DNA from: Paraconexibacter algicola
GTDB taxonomy: Bacteria; Actinomycetota; Thermoleophilia; Solirubrobacterales; Solirubrobacteraceae
Reading direction: 5' to 3'
NCBI RefSeq assembly: GCF_003044185.1
Contig: NZ_PYYB01000004.1
Coordinates: 1 to 64,000 of the forward strand
Length of the DNA stretch: 64,000 nt
Positions 11,476 through 47,526 of the stretch are shown one piece after another (within the stretch, counting starts at the first letter, position 1; each line of letters starts with the position of its first letter). Made by a program: the position numbers and the translations under genes. The notes under the pieces were generated by a model. It saw only the letters and a program-made list of their open reading frames with translations. It was not told the origin of the DNA and made no database searches.

Positions 11476-12999
11476 ATGCCCGCGCCCGCGCTGGTCTTCG
11501 TCGGCTTCATGGGGGCCGGCAAGAGCACGGCGGCCCGTGAGGCCGCCGCGGTCCTCGACGCCCGCCTGCACGACAGCGACCGGCTGCTGGAGGCCGAGTT
11601 CGGCAGCACGATCGAGGCGTTCTTCGACGCGCACGGCGAGGCGGCGTTCCGCGAGCGCGAGGAGGCGCTCGTCCTGCGCCTGCTCGACGCCGCGGACGGT
11701 GACGTGATCGCCTTGGGCGGCGGGACGCTCGCGAGCGCCCGGGTCCGCGAGGCGCTCGGCCGCCACCTGGTCGTGCACGTCGAGGTCGACCTCGAGACGG
11801 CGTGGACGCGCGCCGCGGGCAAGGGCCGGCCGCTGGCCCGCGACCGCGCGGTGTTCGAGGCCCGGTACGCGGAGCGCGCCTCGACCTACCGGTCGGTCGC
11901 CCGCGCGACGTTGCCGCCCGCCGACAAGAAGGTGGGCCGCCGGGCGGCGCGGGCGCTGCGCGATCTCGCGGACGCCCCGGCAGGCACGCAGCTGCTGTGG
12001 GCGACCGCCGCCTCGGGCGACTACCCGGTGCTCGTCGGCCGCCGGCTGCTGGGCCAGGTCCCGTGGCCGCTGGGCGGGCGCCGGTTCGTGGTGAGCGACG
12101 CGAACGTCGGCGACCTCTACGCGGGCCTGGTCGGCGAGGTGTCGGGCCTGATCGAGATCGGCGCGGGGGAGGAGCACAAGACCCTCGCGACGGCCGAGCG
12201 GGTCTGGGAGGCGCTGGTCGAGCAGGGCGCGACGCGCGCCGATCACGTCGTGGCGGTCGGCGGCGGCGTGGTCGGCGACCTCGCGGGGTTCTGCGCGTCG
12301 GCGTACCAGCGCGGCGTGCCGGTCATCCAGGTGCCGACGACGGTCGTCGCCCAGGTGGACAGCGCCTACGGCGGCAAGACCGGGGTGGACCTCCCGACTG
12401 CGAAGAACTACGTCGGGGCGTACCACCAGCCGTCGGCGGTCGTGGTCGACGTCGCGACGCTGGCGACGCTCCCGCCGGAGGAGCACGCGGCGGGCTACGC
12501 GGAGGTCGTGAAGACCGCGCTGATCGCGGGCGGCGCGCTGTGGGAGCAGGTCGCCTCGGGCGTTCCGGTGGACGACGCGACGATCCTCGGCTGCGCGCGC
12601 ACGAAGCTCGCGGTGGTCCGCGAGGACGAGCGCGACGGCGGCCGCCGGCAGGTCCTGAACCTCGGCCACACGGTCGGCCACGCGATCGAGACGGTCAGCG
12701 GCTTCGCGCGCTACCGCCACGGCGAGGCGGTGGGCCTGGGCCTGCTGGCCGCGCTGCGCCTGTCGGGCCAGGAGGACCTGCGCGCGCACGTGCGGGACCT
12801 GCTCGAGGGGGTCGGCCTGCCGGTCGAGCTCGACCCGCAGCTGGACGCTGCGGAGATCGTCGCGGCGACCGCGAAGGACAAGAAGCGGCTGGGCGAGCAC
12901 ACGCCGTTCGTGCTGGTCCACGGTCCGGGGGACGTCCGGCACGGTGCGGTGGTCGCGCCTTCCGACGTGCTCGCGGCCGTGGCAGAGTTGCACGGGTGA
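11476..12999 (+). CDS. Bifunctional shikimate kinase / 3-dehydroquinate synthase fusion
   Basis: 507 residues joining two shikimate enzymes that are usually separate. Residues 1 to about 165 are a shikimate kinase: P-loop GAGKST (13-18), shikimate-binding DSD (33-35) and GGGTLAS (81-87). From about 172 the protein is a 3-dehydroquinate synthase: GEEHKTL, VGGGVVGDLAGF (near 252-262), VPTTVVAQVDSAYGGKTGVD, the metal-ligand segment GYAEVVK, and LNLGHTVGHAIE. Both halves keep their active-site residues, and the frame is open throughout. The order (kinase first) matches the aroK-aroB gene order in actinobacteria, so simple loss of an intergenic stop is the likely origin. Confidence 0.95.
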   Translation: MPAPALVFVGFMGAGKSTAAREAAAVLDARLHDSDRLLEAEFGSTIEAFFDAHGEAAFREREEALVLRLLDAADGDVIALGGGTLASARVREALGRHLVVHVEVDLETAWTRAAGKGRPLARDRAVFEARYAERASTYRSVARATLPPADKKVGRRAARALRDLADAPAGTQLLWATAASGDYPVLVGRRLLGQVPWPLGGRRFVVSDANVGDLYAGLVGEVSGLIEIGAGEEHKTLATAERVWEALVEQGATRADHVVAVGGGVVGDLAGFCASAYQRGVPVIQVPTTVVAQVDSAYGGKTGVDLPTAKNYVGAYHQPSAVVVDVATLATLPPEEHAAGYAEVVKTALIAGGALWEQVASGVPVDDATILGCARTKLAVVREDERDGGRRQVLNLGHTVGHAIETVSGFARYRHGEAVGLGLLAALRLSGQEDLRAHVRDLLEGVGLPVELDPQLDAAEIVAATAKDKKRLGEHTPFVLVHGPGDVRHGAVVAPSDVLAAVAELHG

Positions 13000-13454: not shown

Positions 13455-14527
13455 GCGCAGGCATCGACATGACCCGGGCCGACCGCGTGGCGGCGGCCCT
13501 CGACGGCCGAGCGGCCCTGCTCGTCACGGACCTCGTGGACATCCGCTGGCTGACGGGCTTCACGGGCTCCAACGCGGTCGCGCTCGTGGGTGCGGCGGGC
13601 GAGCGGCTGCTGCTGACCGACTTCCGCTACCTCAGCCAGGTCGAGGCGCAGGTCGACGCGGGCTGGGAGCGCCTGATCCGCCAGGACCTGCTGGCTTCGG
13701 TGGCGGACGCCCTACCGACCGGTCGGTCGGGCTTCGACGAGCACGACCTGTCGGTGCACCAGCACCAGCACCTGCTCGCGAAGGTCGGCGAGGGCGTCGA
13801 GCTCGAGCCGGCGGGCTCGATCGTCAAGGACCTGCGCGCGATCAAGGACGAGGCGGAGCTCGTGAAGCTCCGGGCCGTCGCGAAGGTCGCCGACGAGGCG
13901 TTCGAGGAGGTGGTGTCCGCCGGGCTCGTCGGCCGGACCGAGCGCGACGTCGCCCTGGACCTGGAGATCGCGATGCGCCGCCGCGGCGCCGACGGGGTCT
14001 CGTTCCCGCCGATCATCGCCGCGGGCGAGCACGGCGCGCTGCCGCACGCGGAGCCGCGCGACGTCCCGATCCCCGCGAACACGCTCGTGGTCATCGACTG
14101 GGGCGCCCAGATGGACGGCTACGCGTCGGACTGCACGCGCACCGTCGCCACCGGGCCGCTGGACCCGCGTGACCGCGCGGTCTACGACACGGTGCTGGCC
14201 GCGCAGGAGGCGGCGCTGGCCGCGGTCCGGCCCGGGCCCACGGGCCGCGAGGTCGACGCGGTCGCCCGGACGATCATCGACGAGGCCGGGCACGCCGAGC
14301 ACTTCGGGCACGGCCTCGGCCACGGTGTCGGGCTGGAGGTCCACGAGGGTCCGCGGCTCTCCAAGCAGGGCGAGGTCGCGCTCGCCCCGGGCCACGTGGT
14401 GACGGTCGAGCCGGGCATCTACGTGCCGGGCGCGGTCGGGGTCCGGATCGAGGACCTCGTGGCGGTGACCGAGGGCGGGCACGAGGTCCTCTCGTCGCTG
14501 CCCAAGGCGCTGCGCACCGTCGACTGA
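13451..14527 (+). CDS. Xaa-Pro aminopeptidase / M24 metallopeptidase
   Basis: 358 residues. The N-terminal creatinase-like domain (VDIRWLTGFTGSNAVALV) is followed by a pita-bread catalytic domain. The five metal ligands are visible: Asp in VIDWGAQ, Asp in SDCTRT, His in FGHGLGHGVGLEVHE, and Glu in TVEPGIYV and VRIEDLV. It would remove N-terminal residues preceding proline. The aroQ-pepP-efp order is common in Gram-positive bacteria; here a tetR insertion separates efp. The palindrome ACCGACCGGTCGGT lies inside the gene at 13714-13727. Confidence 0.93.
   Translation: MSAGIDMTRADRVAAALDGRAALLVTDLVDIRWLTGFTGSNAVALVGAAGERLLLTDFRYLSQVEAQVDAGWERLIRQDLLASVADALPTGRSGFDEHDLSVHQHQHLLAKVGEGVELEPAGSIVKDLRAIKDEAELVKLRAVAKVADEAFEEVVSAGLVGRTERDVALDLEIAMRRRGADGVSFPPIIAAGEHGALPHAEPRDVPIPANTLVVIDWGAQMDGYASDCTRTVATGPLDPRDRAVYDTVLAAQEAALAAVRPGPTGREVDAVARTIIDEAGHAEHFGHGLGHGVGLEVHEGPRLSKQGEVALAPGHVVTVEPGIYVPGAVGVRIEDLVAVTEGGHEVLSSLPKALRTVD
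13714..13727. repeat. Dispersed palindrome, copy 1 (inside M24 peptidase gene)
   Basis: Perfect 14-bp palindrome ACCGACCGGTCGGT. In this gene it is read in a different frame (P-T-G-R-S-G) from the copies at 31943, 42042 and 45296 (T-D-R-S-V), so the DNA sequence and not a peptide motif is what is shared. Confidence 0.8.
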
Positions 14528-15258
14528 TGCTCGAGCTCTCGGGGCACCCGGTCGCGCTCATCGACGAGCCGCTCGACGTCCGCCTCCGCGGACTCGGCGA
14601 GGTCGCGGCCGCGTTCGACGACGAGGACGATCTCGGCGGTGTCCTCTGGCGTGCGCGGCTGCGCGACGACGACGGGCGCGTCTGGCGCGCCGCGGCCGAC
14701 GCTCCGGAGCACCTGCCCGCCGGTCTGGCCCCGTCCAAGCCGGGAACCGGCCGCGTGCCCGCGCTGGGCTCCCTGCACCCGGTGCGGCTGGACGTGCACG
14801 CCGAGGCGCCCGACGGGCGCGGCGCGAAGCGCACGTTCGAACGGCGGCTCCTGGCCGACGGGGTGCGCGTCCGCCGCTGGAAGGAGCCGCAGCTGCGCGC
14901 CACCGCGTTCCTGCCGCCGCCCGGCGCGCCGGCCGCCGAGCCGTTGCTGCTCGACGCGCGCACCGACGCCAGCACGGGTGAGCTCGGCCTGCTGGCCGCG
15001 TTCGTGGCGCCGCTGGCGGCCGCGGTCCTCGCCTCGCGGGGCCGCGCGACGCTCGTCGTGACCGACCTCGACGACCTCGCGCCCGCGCTGGAGCGGCTGG
15101 CCGGGCTGCGCGCGGCGACCGGGGCGCCCCGCGTCCTGCGAGCGCTCGGCGCCGGCGACGTCGTGCTGCTCCCGCCGGGGATCCCGGTGCTCGACGAGGG
15201 CTCCGCGGCCCGCACGGCCCGGCGGGACCGCTGGGCGAGCATCGTCACCCCGGCCTGA
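14527..15258 (+). CDS. BAAT N-terminal-domain-like protein, no intact hydrolase domain
   Basis: 243 residues, its ATG overlapping the previous TGA by one base. The first 145 residues fit the N-terminal beta-sandwich of acyl-CoA thioesterase/BAAT proteins: ALIDEPLDVRLRGL, VWRARLRDDDGRVWRAAAD, then FERRLLADGVRVRRWKEPQLRATAFLPP. The remainder (LLAAFVAPLAAAVLASRGRATLVV) resembles the opening strands and helix of the alpha/beta hydrolase domain, but no nucleophile elbow or catalytic His follows. It is either a truncated relic or a stand-alone binding domain. The 3' end overlaps the convergent tetR gene by 14 bases. Confidence 0.5.
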   Translation: MLELSGHPVALIDEPLDVRLRGLGEVAAAFDDEDDLGGVLWRARLRDDDGRVWRAAADAPEHLPAGLAPSKPGTGRVPALGSLHPVRLDVHAEAPDGRGAKRTFERRLLADGVRVRRWKEPQLRATAFLPPPGAPAAEPLLLDARTDASTGELGLLAAFVAPLAAAVLASRGRATLVVTDLDDLAPALERLAGLRAATGAPRVLRALGAGDVVLLPPGIPVLDEGSAARTARRDRWASIVTPA

Positions 15259-16126
15259 GGTCCGGCGGGTCACGCCCGGGGTCGCCGTCGCGCGGGCGGG
15301 CCGGCCACGACGGATCCGCGCCCGGCGGGGTGCGCTCGCCGCGCCGCAGGTCCGCGCGTGGCGGCCGGGTCCACGCGCGGGCGAGGTTCGACGCGGCCAC
15401 CAGCGGGTGCGCGAGCGCCCAGTGCATCACGGCCTCCGCGGCGCCGACGAGCATCTCGGCATGCAGCTCGAGGGCGAAGCGGCGGTTCAGTCCGCGCTGC
15501 GCACGGACGCTGCGGTCACGGCGCAGCGCCTCGACCACCCGGTCGAGCACCGTCCGCCGCACCTCGGCGTGCACGGCCATGACCGCCTCCTCCTCGATCG
15601 GCCGGTGCAGCAGCAGGCGGGCGCTGTCGGGGTTGCGCCGGGCCCAGCGCACGAGCGCGCAGACGACGCGCGGGAGCGGCTCGAGCTCCCAGCCCGTCGG
15701 TGCGGGGCCGGCCGCGACCGTGTCGACGGCCCCGACGTGGCCGCCTCGACCCGCCGCGAGCACGGCCGGGCCGAGGAACTCGTGCGCGTGGGCGCCCACG
15801 AGCTGCGGGCCGAGCACCGCCTCGACGCGCTGGGCCTCGTGCCGCAGCGCGGCCGCGTACAGATGCGCCTTGGACGGGAAGTACGAGTACATCGTCGGGC
15901 GCGAGACGGGGGAGACCGCCTCGAGGCGCCGCAACGTCGCCCGCGCGTAGCCGCGCGCCGCGAAGACCGGGATGACCGCCTCCAAGATCTGGACCCGCCG
16001 CTGCGCCCCCGTGACCCGGGCGGCCCGCCGCGCCCGCCGGTCGCGCGGCTTGTCGAGCACCTTGCCGAACAGGAGCCGCTCGGTGCGGTCCGGGTCGAAC
16101 AGCGCGTCGATGTCCTTCTGGTCCAT
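15245..16126 (-). CDS. TetR family transcriptional regulator
   Basis: 293 residues, longer than the usual 190-220. An N-terminal extension (about 45 residues, charged) precedes the DNA-binding domain: QILEAVIPVFAARGYARATLRRLEA, then PVSRPTMYSYFPSKAHLYAAAL, the classical TetR helix-turn-helix with YxYFPSK. The C-terminal helical ligand domain and a Pro/Arg/Asp-rich tail are less conserved. A near-perfect palindrome (16134-16147) lies 7 bases upstream of the start, suggesting autorepression. The target genes are unknown; efp is divergent but is a housekeeping gene. Confidence 0.88.
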   Translation of the reverse strand: MDQKDIDALFDPDRTERLLFGKVLDKPRDRRARRAARVTGAQRRVQILEAVIPVFAARGYARATLRRLEAVSPVSRPTMYSYFPSKAHLYAAALRHEAQRVEAVLGPQLVGAHAHEFLGPAVLAAGRGGHVGAVDTVAAGPAPTGWELEPLPRVVCALVRWARRNPDSARLLLHRPIEEEAVMAVHAEVRRTVLDRVVEALRRDRSVRAQRGLNRRFALELHAEMLVGAAEAVMHWALAHPLVAASNLARAWTRPPRADLRRGERTPPGADPSWPARPRDGDPGRDPPDLRPG

Positions 16127-16133
16127 GCCCCAG

Positions 16134-16147
16134 ACCTACCGGTCGGT
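16134..16147. promoter_or_regulatory. Probable TetR operator; variant of the dispersed palindrome
   Basis: ACCTACCGGTCGGT has one mismatch from the palindrome ACCGACCGGTCGGT. It sits directly upstream of the tetR start, where it would block transcription. GC-rich palindromes of this kind are common TetR-family operators in actinobacteria. Confidence 0.55.
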
Positions 16148-31731: not shown

Positions 31732-32898
31732 GTGCGGCGCGCCGACGCGGCCGAGCGCGAGCGCCTGCACGCGCTCTTCGGCGAGCTGTGCGCGATCCGC
31801 TCGGTGACGGGCGAGGAGCGCGCGATCGCCGACCGCGTGACGGCCGAGCTGACCGGCCTGGGCCTCGCGGTCCACGAGGACGGCACGGCCGCGGAGACGG
31901 GCCTGGGCAGCGGCAACCTGCTGGTCCGGATCCCCGCGGCGCACCCGACCGACCGGTCGGTCGGGTTGTGCGCGCACCTGGACACCGTGCCGCACGACGG
32001 GGTCGTCGAGCCCGTCCGGGTGGACGGGGGGTGGGAGAGCGCGGGGGAGACGATCCTCGGGGCCGACAACAAGGCCGCGCTCGCCGTGCTGCTCGTCGCC
32101 GCCCGTCGGCTGGTGGCCGAGGGGGCCCCGGTCGGCGTCGAGCTGCTGCTGACCGCGGGAGAGGAGACCGCACTGCTGGGCGCCTCGGCGTTCGACGTCT
32201 CGACGCTGCGCTGCGACCTCGGCTACGTCTACGACCACGCGTCCCCGATCGGGGAGATCGCGCTCGCGTCCCCGACCTACTACCGGATCGAGGGCCACTT
32301 CCTCGGTGCCGCGGCCCACGCCGGGATCCGTCCCGAGACGGGGCGCAGCGCGGTCCGGGCCGCGGCCCGGGCGGTCGTCGCGATGCCGCACGGCCGGCTC
32401 GACGACCAGACCACCGCGAACGCCGGGCACGTGCGCGGCGGGCCCGCCGGGGCGACGAACGTCGTGCCGGAGCACGCGACGGTCCTCGCCGAGGTCCGCT
32501 CCCTGGACGCCGCCCGGGCGGAGGAGGTCGTCGGGCAGGTCGTCGACGCGTTCCACGACGCCGCCAACGACCCGGACGCCCCGTGCGACCTGGACCTGCA
32601 GGTCGCCCGCCTCTTCGCCGGCTACCGGCAGGCGCCCGACCTGCCCGCGGTCCGCATCGCCGAGGAGGCGCTGCGCGCGTGCGGCTACGCGCCGCGCCAC
32701 ATCGTCACCGGGGGCGGCACCGACGCCAACGCGATCATCGCCGCCGGCGGGCCGCCGTTCGTGAACCTCGCCAACGGCACCGAGCGCAACCACCAGACCT
32801 CCGAGCGCGTCAGCGACCAGGCGCTCGAGGACATGCTCGACCTCACCTTCGCGCTGCTCGACGCCGCGGCGGACCCCCGGTTCGCGCCGGAAGCGTGA
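31732..32898 (+). CDS. M20/M42-type metallopeptidase (PepT-like)
   Basis: 388 residues, GTG start 3 bases after the pyrG stop. Two-zinc ligands are visible: His and Asp in CAHLDTVPHDG, the bridging Asp in LGADNKAALA, the catalytic Glu pair in TAGEETALLGASAFD, Asp in YVYDHAS and the last His in ERNHQTSERV. A lid domain lies between about 190 and 295. It most resembles actinobacterial tripeptide aminopeptidase-like M20 enzymes; the peptide substrate is not predictable. The 24-bp palindrome at 31943-31966 lies in this gene. Confidence 0.88.
   Translation: MRRADAAERERLHALFGELCAIRSVTGEERAIADRVTAELTGLGLAVHEDGTAAETGLGSGNLLVRIPAAHPTDRSVGLCAHLDTVPHDGVVEPVRVDGGWESAGETILGADNKAALAVLLVAARRLVAEGAPVGVELLLTAGEETALLGASAFDVSTLRCDLGYVYDHASPIGEIALASPTYYRIEGHFLGAAAHAGIRPETGRSAVRAAARAVVAMPHGRLDDQTTANAGHVRGGPAGATNVVPEHATVLAEVRSLDAARAEEVVGQVVDAFHDAANDPDAPCDLDLQVARLFAGYRQAPDLPAVRIAEEALRACGYAPRHIVTGGGTDANAIIAAGGPPFVNLANGTERNHQTSERVSDQALEDMLDLTFALLDAAADPRFAPEA
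31943..31966. repeat. Dispersed palindrome, copy 2, extended to 24 bp
   Basis: This is the longest copy: the core ACCGACCGGTCGGT is flanked so that 12 bases on each side of the centre (31954/31955) are exact reverse complements. It encodes H-P-T-D-R-S-V-G within the peptidase, just before the metal-binding CAHLD segment. Confidence 0.85.
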
Positions 32899-40909: not shown

Positions 40910-42102
40910 CCGACCGGCACGCAGAGGCGCGGCGCGCGATCGTCGTCGTCATGGACGCGTGCGGAGCCGGGGCGACCGACGACGCGGACGCCTACGGGGA
41001 CGCGGACGCCGACACGCTCGTGCACCTCGCCGAGGCGGTGGGCGGCCTGGAGCTGCCCGTGCTCGGGCGCCTCGGGCTCGGCAACGTCCGCTCCCTGCTC
41101 GGGGTGCCGCCCGCGCTGCGCCCCGGCGCGCTCCACGGGCGCCTGCACCCGGCGGGGCCCGGCAAGGACTCCACGACCGGGCACTGGGAGCTCTTCGGCG
41201 TCGTCGCCGACGCCCCGCTGCCCACCTACCCGGAGGGCTTCCCGCCGGCGGTGCTGGGGCGCATCGAGCTGGCGGCGGGCCGTCGCTGCTGCTGCAACGC
41301 CCCGTACGAGGGGATCGCGGCGATCCACGACTTCGGCGAGCACCACCGGGCGACCGGGGAGCTGATCCTCTACACGTCGGTCGACTCGGTGCTCCAGATC
41401 GCCGCCCACGTCGACGTCGTCCCCGAGGCGGAGCTGTACGCGATCTGCGCGCGGGTGCGGGAGGTCATGCGCGACGAGCACGCGGTCGGCCGCGTCATCG
41501 CGCGCCCGTTCACCGGGGAGCCCGGCGCGTTCCGGCGCACCGAGGGGCGCCGCGACCTCGTCGTCCAGCCGCCCGGACCGAGCCACGTCGACCTGATCGC
41601 CGACCTCGGCCTGCCGACGCACGCGGTCGGCAAGGTCGCCGACCTCTTCGCGGGTCGCGGCTTCTCGGACACGCACCCGGGGGCGACGAACGCGGTCGCG
41701 CTCGAGCGGACGACCGCGCTGCTGCGCGACGTGCCCTCGGGCCTGATCGCGACCAACCTCGTCGAGACCGACCAGACCTACGGGCACCGCAAGGACGTCG
41801 CGGGCTTCGCAGCGGCGCTGCGGGCGATCGACGACGCGGTGGGGGAGTGGCTGGCGCTGCTGCGCCCCGGGGACCTGCTCGTCCTCACCGCCGACCACGG
41901 CTGCGACCCGACCACGCCGGGCACCGACCACACGCGCGAGCACGCCCCGCTGCTGGCGGTCTTCGCCGACCACGGCGGGCGTCGCCACGACGGGCCGCTG
42001 TCGGACGTGGGGGCGAGCGCGGCGGCCTGGCTGGGCGTCCCGACCGACCGGTCGGTCCCCGGCACGTCGTTCGTGACCCCCGTCGACCCGTCGGCCGCCT
42101 GA
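40906..42102 (+). CDS. deoB: Phosphopentomutase-like protein (DeoB family), altered substrate loop
   Basis: 398 residues, GTG start. Alkaline-phosphatase superfamily: VVVMDACGAGATDDADAYGD metal site, phosphorylated Thr region in GKDSTTGHWELFG, NLVETDQTYGHRKD and TADHGCDPTTPGTDHTREH. The loop that is normally NKPASGT, which contacts the ribose, is here CCCNAPYEGIA, and SVLQIAAH follows normally. It should interconvert ribose 1- and 5-phosphate or a related sugar phosphate. The palindrome at 42042-42057 lies near its 3' end. Confidence 0.85.
   Translation: MTDRHAEARRAIVVVMDACGAGATDDADAYGDADADTLVHLAEAVGGLELPVLGRLGLGNVRSLLGVPPALRPGALHGRLHPAGPGKDSTTGHWELFGVVADAPLPTYPEGFPPAVLGRIELAAGRRCCCNAPYEGIAAIHDFGEHHRATGELILYTSVDSVLQIAAHVDVVPEAELYAICARVREVMRDEHAVGRVIARPFTGEPGAFRRTEGRRDLVVQPPGPSHVDLIADLGLPTHAVGKVADLFAGRGFSDTHPGATNAVALERTTALLRDVPSGLIATNLVETDQTYGHRKDVAGFAAALRAIDDAVGEWLALLRPGDLLVLTADHGCDPTTPGTDHTREHAPLLAVFADHGGRRHDGPLSDVGASAAAWLGVPTDRSVPGTSFVTPVDPSAA
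42042..42057. repeat. Dispersed palindrome, copy 3 (in deoB)
   Basis: Perfect 16-bp palindrome GACCGACCGGTCGGTC, read as T-D-R-S-V near the C-terminus of DeoB, in a stretch not otherwise conserved. Confidence 0.8.

Positions 42103-44942: not shown

Positions 44943-47526
<2,584 letters not shown>

Follow-up and report, generated by a model that had tools for sequence, protein, structure and literature searches.

The Ter macrodomain of Escherichia coli is the domain of MatP and matS, a system of 23 short palindromic sites over 800 kb, which indicates that about 20 sites suffice (PMC3330122). In Caulobacter, ZapT is annotated as a regulator of the MerR family, and its ChIP sites lie mostly within genes near ter, at 10 positions for which a consensus motif was not found; a supposed regulator can thus bind inside genes near ter (PMC7188993). 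Two further systems use TetR-family proteins. SlmA of E. coli acts in nucleoid occlusion through dozens of dispersed sites (SBS) that avoid ter, and RefZ of Bacillus subtilis has nearly palindromic sites (RBM) that mark chromosome positions, a genus-conserved set of five, one near oriC and a pair on either arm; TetR proteins can thus do landmark work (PMC6657595). Among the open-licence papers that our searches listed, we found no description of a TetR-family terminus-domain system.

Here we describe a palindrome that occurs 20 times in the genome of one actinobacterial species, with one copy directly at the start of a tetR gene. From the sequence, we give about an even chance to the reading that the palindrome is the operator of this TetR and that the other copies are address sites marking a terminus-side domain. 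The fuller proposal, that a TetR repressor has turned into a terminus-domain organiser in this one species, its operator having been copied by point mutation to some 19 places, is offered more tentatively.

The best reading by analogy is that such a system would work like MatP/matS or ZapT while being kin to neither. As in MatP/matS, the site is a palindrome of 13-14 bp, present here in about 20 copies on a scale of about 1 Mb in terminus-side DNA; unlike matS, the copies are centred on tetR, and most of them fall to one side of the dif candidate. MatP is not known to be a TetR protein, Pfam gives TetR_N alone for the TetR studied here and so does not place it in the MatP family, and samples totalling 1.44 Mb contain 1 match to the matS consensus. 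The likeness to ZapT lies in a presumed regulator whose sites are mostly within genes on the terminus side, but the protein here belongs to the TetR family (PF00440) and has a sharp palindrome, in contrast to a MerR protein with no consensus. Unlike the SlmA sites, the copies are concentrated on the terminus side rather than excluded from ter, and the TetR scores 27.2 bits against the SlmA equivalog, well below its cut-off of 120. Unlike RefZ, there are 20 copies in one domain of one species, none of them on the contig that carries dnaA.

The palindrome at the start of tetR

The window, a stretch of 64,000 nucleotides, comprises positions 1-64000 of contig C4 in a genome of 4,736,481 bases on six contigs (C1-C6). 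It contains a tetR gene on the minus strand (15245..16126) that is predicted, from its match to PF00440 and from codon usage, to encode a TetR-family protein of 293 aa. The PF00440 match (36.9 bits against a cut-off of 24 in a Pfam scan, the sole significant Pfam family) covers residues 47-93 and leaves an N-terminal extension of 40-odd residues ahead of the helix-turn-helix (HTH). Codon usage supports coding as far as the ATG, at 16124-16126 on the minus strand. A single-sequence AlphaFold2 model of the protein had a mean pLDDT of 41.8 and was set aside. Tail-to-tail with tetR, and overlapping its end, lies an open frame of 243 aa (14527-15258), for which Pfam and NCBIfam scans gave no match.

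The first-pass annotation had placed ACCTACCGGTCGGT 7 bases ahead of the start codon of TetR, at the position expected of an autoregulatory operator. On re-measurement the palindrome, in a form with a single G-to-T change (the T variant), occupies 16134..16147, and the gap to the ATG is indeed 7 bases. It overlaps a TAGGTC, which would be at -12 to -7 provided that transcription begins at the ATG. This position, together with palindromes before foreign TetR genes at three loci described below, bears out the earlier placement, and we consider the copy at 16134 a strong candidate, probably correct, for an autoregulatory TetR operator. The TetR encoded at 15245-16126 would then bind the palindrome and, from this copy, exert negative autoregulation.

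Allowing up to two mismatches, the window contains 12 strand-matches at six places (11884, 13714, 16134, 31948, 42043 and 45297), compared with 0.48 strand-matches expected from shuffled windows, none of which reached 12 in 100 shuffles. Four of the six places are the perfect palindrome ACCGACCGGTCGGT, and the other two share one G-to-T change. At a further pair of places, 25865 and 63164, the sequence also differs from the perfect palindrome by no more than two mismatches, but these are GC-rich near-matches that look like background. Apart from the tetR copy, the window's copies, which like it have no strand, all lie in genes. The T variant at 11884..11897 falls in a shikimate kinase/3-dehydroquinate synthase fusion gene, where it reads T-Y-R-S-V, and perfect palindromes are found at 13714..13727 in an M24 (Xaa-Pro-type) peptidase gene, where a CTA Leu codon is forced, and, by motif and codon usage, at 31948..31961 in an M20 peptidase gene, at 42043..42056 in a metalloenzyme-superfamily gene (PF01676) and at 45297..45310 in a pyruvate phosphate dikinase (PPDK)-type gene. 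The fusion gene (11476-12999) is flanked by chorismate synthase and type II dehydroquinase genes.

Twenty copies and a contig that has none

Across the whole genome, ACCKACCGGTMGGT has 20 copies, 15 of them perfect and five with one G-to-T change, and its reversed control has none. The copies are distributed as 10 on C2, seven on C4, two on C3, one on C6 and none on C1 or C5. C1 amounts to 2,962,164 bases, or 62.5% of the genome, and holds both matches to ParB as well as the one DnaA that passes the cut-off; the chance that none of 20 copies would fall there under an even distribution is 3e-9. Other places with one mismatch behave differently, as nine of the 16 among the matches listed are on C1 and seven elsewhere (Fisher 1.2e-4 versus the copies). 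Conversely, C2 and C4 make up 21% of the genome and carry 17 of the 20 copies (1.4e-9), a result that is independent of where C3, C5 and C6 are placed. In an unbiased palindrome screen of samples from C2-C6 the motif ranked first, with the 14-mer found 7 times against 0.01 expected, although this screen is illustrative only, because the C2-C6 sample took in the window and two stretches chosen for their copies, and because two stretches overlap. The same screen did not put the motif among the top palindromes in samples of C1 or of G151, a closed relative, and 0.8 Mb of G151 samples held no comparable palindrome.

Four parS-like sites, found with a parS consensus at up to three mismatches, lie beside parB on C1 (~1251869-1252190), and the second ParB-family match (C1:463818-464261) is in an open frame of 467 aa. 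Unlike ParB/parS, the palindrome is absent from C1, where parB and these sites are.

Conservation among the copies extends over about 20 bases, as CCG-ACCKACCGGTMGGT-CGG, with G at arm position -1 in 34/40, C at -2 in 31/40 and C at -3 in 30/40. Dispersed copies in one species only could point to a mobile palindromic element or an insertion hot spot, but no common flank is shared between copies past those ~20 bases. Alignments with the relatives fetched span three of the 20 sites; in the best of these comparisons (L001) the ortholog is aligned without gaps and with two substitutions, which also speaks against insertion, and the other two (L013 and L014) are gapped and ambiguous. We consider a mobile origin highly improbable.

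A domain centred on tetR on the inferred map

To place the copies we used an inferred contig order of C1, C3 reversed, C6, C4 reversed, C2 and C5 reversed. The ends of C1 and C3 overlap by 73 bases, a 73-base tip is common to C3, C5 and C6, and 28 bases of another tip are common to C1, C6 and C4; such shared ends would be expected if a repeat present three times had interrupted the assembly. In synteny with G151, which is interrupted in places, including inside C2 and C4, the C2 start meets the C4 start at ~2.935 Mb and the C4 end meets the C6 end at ~3.298 Mb. The other joins, including that of the C2 end to the C5 end, were made by elimination.

Plain GC skew in 20-kb samples gave no usable switch. 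Octamers skewed on C1, however, are positive or zero across C3, C6 and down to about 215 kb on C4, and mostly negative beyond, with a mixed C2 start, which matches the inferred order and sets a strand switch about 2.42 Mb from dnaA. The antipode is at 2.368 Mb. Near both lies a dif candidate with one mismatch (C4:253209-253227, at 2.391 Mb), a weak call: with the same pattern a second dif-like match, at two mismatches, lies at 2.271 Mb (C6:93396), one match is also seen with the reversed control, and a stricter pattern has none.

On this map all 20 copies fall between 1.985 and 3.261 Mb, a range of 1.28 Mb or 27% of the genome, and none of 200,000 random sets was as concentrated. The dispersal claimed in the first-pass annotation is thus upheld, and its extent, put there at 30 kb or more, becomes about 1.28 Mb on the inferred map. 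The tetR gene is at 2.628 Mb, 5 kb from the middle of the span and 20 kb from the median of the copies; a random centre comes that close in 0.2% and 0.8% of cases, respectively. Density is also highest around the gene, with eight copies within 45 kb of tetR, its own copy counted, compared with 1.4 expected within the span (3.6e-5). The remaining twelve are 90-640 kb distant, and the set ends about 640 kb away on either side. An alternative map with C6 on the other side gives a span of 1.44 Mb whose middle is 200 kb from tetR.

The span takes in the antipode, the octamer switch and the dif candidate, which is 0.24 Mb from tetR. Relative to this candidate the copies extend from -406 to +870 kb, which puts the domain on the terminus side but with its centre at tetR, not at dif. 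Because 17 of the 20 copies lie on one side of the candidate and a random arc of the same length covers it in 27% of cases, the data point only weakly to the terminus as such. We also considered the copies as a fork trap and rejected this, as the five T variants have no common orientation on the map (4 versus 1).

The peak of density at tetR, and the end of the set at similar distances both ways on the preferred map, would also be expected if binding by a scarce regulator is strongest around the gene that encodes it and weakly useful sites persisted there without a structural role. For this idea of a local search, a literature search found no paper. The twelve distant copies, and genes that offer no regulatory reason for their retention, argue against this explanation, and we judge it quite unlikely here.

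Copies inside genes and the codons that they force

The earlier description of the copies as mostly intragenic agrees with codon usage, which places about 14 of the 20 within predicted genes, although one of these (L009) may precede the true start of its gene. The six others include the tetR copy, one copy between convergent genes (L006), one just ahead of an ATG (L008) and one that includes a stop codon (L010), together with L005 and L012; six is more than the share expected from coding density, and two of the six stand before start codons. The 14 intragenic copies use all three reading frames (7, 3 and 4). Three of them force a CTA Leu codon, which the training ORFs use for 55 of their 17,552 Leu codons; these ORFs were picked for high GC3, so that codon figures are somewhat biased. 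Other rare codons forced by the copies are GGT (5%) and CGA (3%), and the T variant permits Tyr in two genes. Taken at the level of sequence, these features show a DNA-level constraint on the copies that overrides codon usage.

The genes with copies encode an AraC-type regulator, an AlkZ-like glycosylase, an acyltransferase, a C5-epimerase, a RibD-like protein, the M20 and M24 peptidases, the metalloenzyme, PPDK, a DUF429 protein, an alpha/beta hydrolase and the shikimate kinase/dehydroquinate synthase fusion; two copy-bearing genes have no Pfam match. Pfam annotation revealed no common functional theme among them, and we therefore rejected an ordinary regulon as the main reading.

The first-pass annotation had suggested that the intragenic copies form a set of decoys or roadblocks. 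An ordinary autoregulator whose nearby copies titrate it or block transcription within genes would fit the copy at tetR's own start, the eight copies within 45 kb, and the settings of L006, L008 and L010. However, decoys work anywhere in the cell, and neither titration nor transcriptional roadblocks need clustering in one domain; this leaves the limit to 27% of the genome, and the absence of copies from 2.96 Mb including the origin, unexplained, and the lack of a theme among the genes counts against it as well. We did not find support for the suggestion as the main explanation. It is a weaker reading than the domain marker, and we rate it as unlikely.

A possible marker of a terminus-side domain

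If the copies instead mark a domain, the 19 apart from the tetR copy would be address sites rather than a regulon, each arising by point substitution within whichever gene was there. TetR bound at them would mark, and might bridge or compact, a domain of 1.3 Mb centred on tetR, and it might play a part in folding the chromosome, in SMC handling or in a link to the division site. It weighs against the domain-marker reading that a basic function would not be expected to depend on a system found in a single species, and that the contig order comes partly from elimination.

If true, this would add to SlmA and RefZ a third chromosome landmark of TetR descent, with a geography opposite to that of SlmA, and would be a macrodomain system caught shortly after its origin. 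Because relatives have neither the sites nor the protein, it would show how such systems arise. The question is a testable one, since the system, in a high-GC lineage, has a single palindrome at 20 sites and a candidate reader beside its densest cluster.

Candidate readers and the palindrome in other genomes

No evident ortholog of the TetR was found in 100 other genomes of the order or in seven relatives of the genus, where the best matches (1e-10 and 2e-9, respectively) cover the HTH region alone. A search for orthologs in a collection of genome contigs returned three loci, with 30-33% identity in the HTH region only. The TetR's own genome contains at least 13 TetR-like matches (E <= 0.001). 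A different DNA-binding protein, possibly another of these TetRs, might therefore read the copies, with the tetR copy merely one of its targets, and TetR-like genes do lie less than 500 bp from copies at two loci, L006 and L012. Yet no other TetR gene of the genome starts directly at a copy, and on the preferred map the set is centred on the tetR in the window. We think another reader improbable, and keep the TetR in the window as the candidate.

Elsewhere the palindrome is sparse. The highest copy counts are 2 among 150 genomes of the order, 3 among 145 of the family and 5 among 395 of the phylum, in overlapping sets, and within the genus a single copy is present in three of the other seven members and none in the remaining four. 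We looked at 20 foreign loci (22 palindromes from 13 genomes), chosen from the matches listed rather than at random. A TetR gene was found within the fetched 4-kb stretch at five of them, and at three (L196, L203 and L206) the TetR start lies ~20-40 bases past the palindrome. At 21 TetR matches per Mb of samples, three or more of 20 loci would be within 100 bases of a TetR by chance with a probability of ~1e-5, a rough figure because the loci were not randomly drawn. This association with TetR promoters, observed in sequence, suggests that the palindrome is a member of a TetR-operator class. Its letters may match the operator core of the gamma-butyrolactone receptor ArpA, a lead that we did not use as evidence. 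At another foreign locus (G593 C1:4499704 and 4499727), where the 4-kb stretch yielded no TetR gene, two T-variant palindromes lie 23 bases apart.
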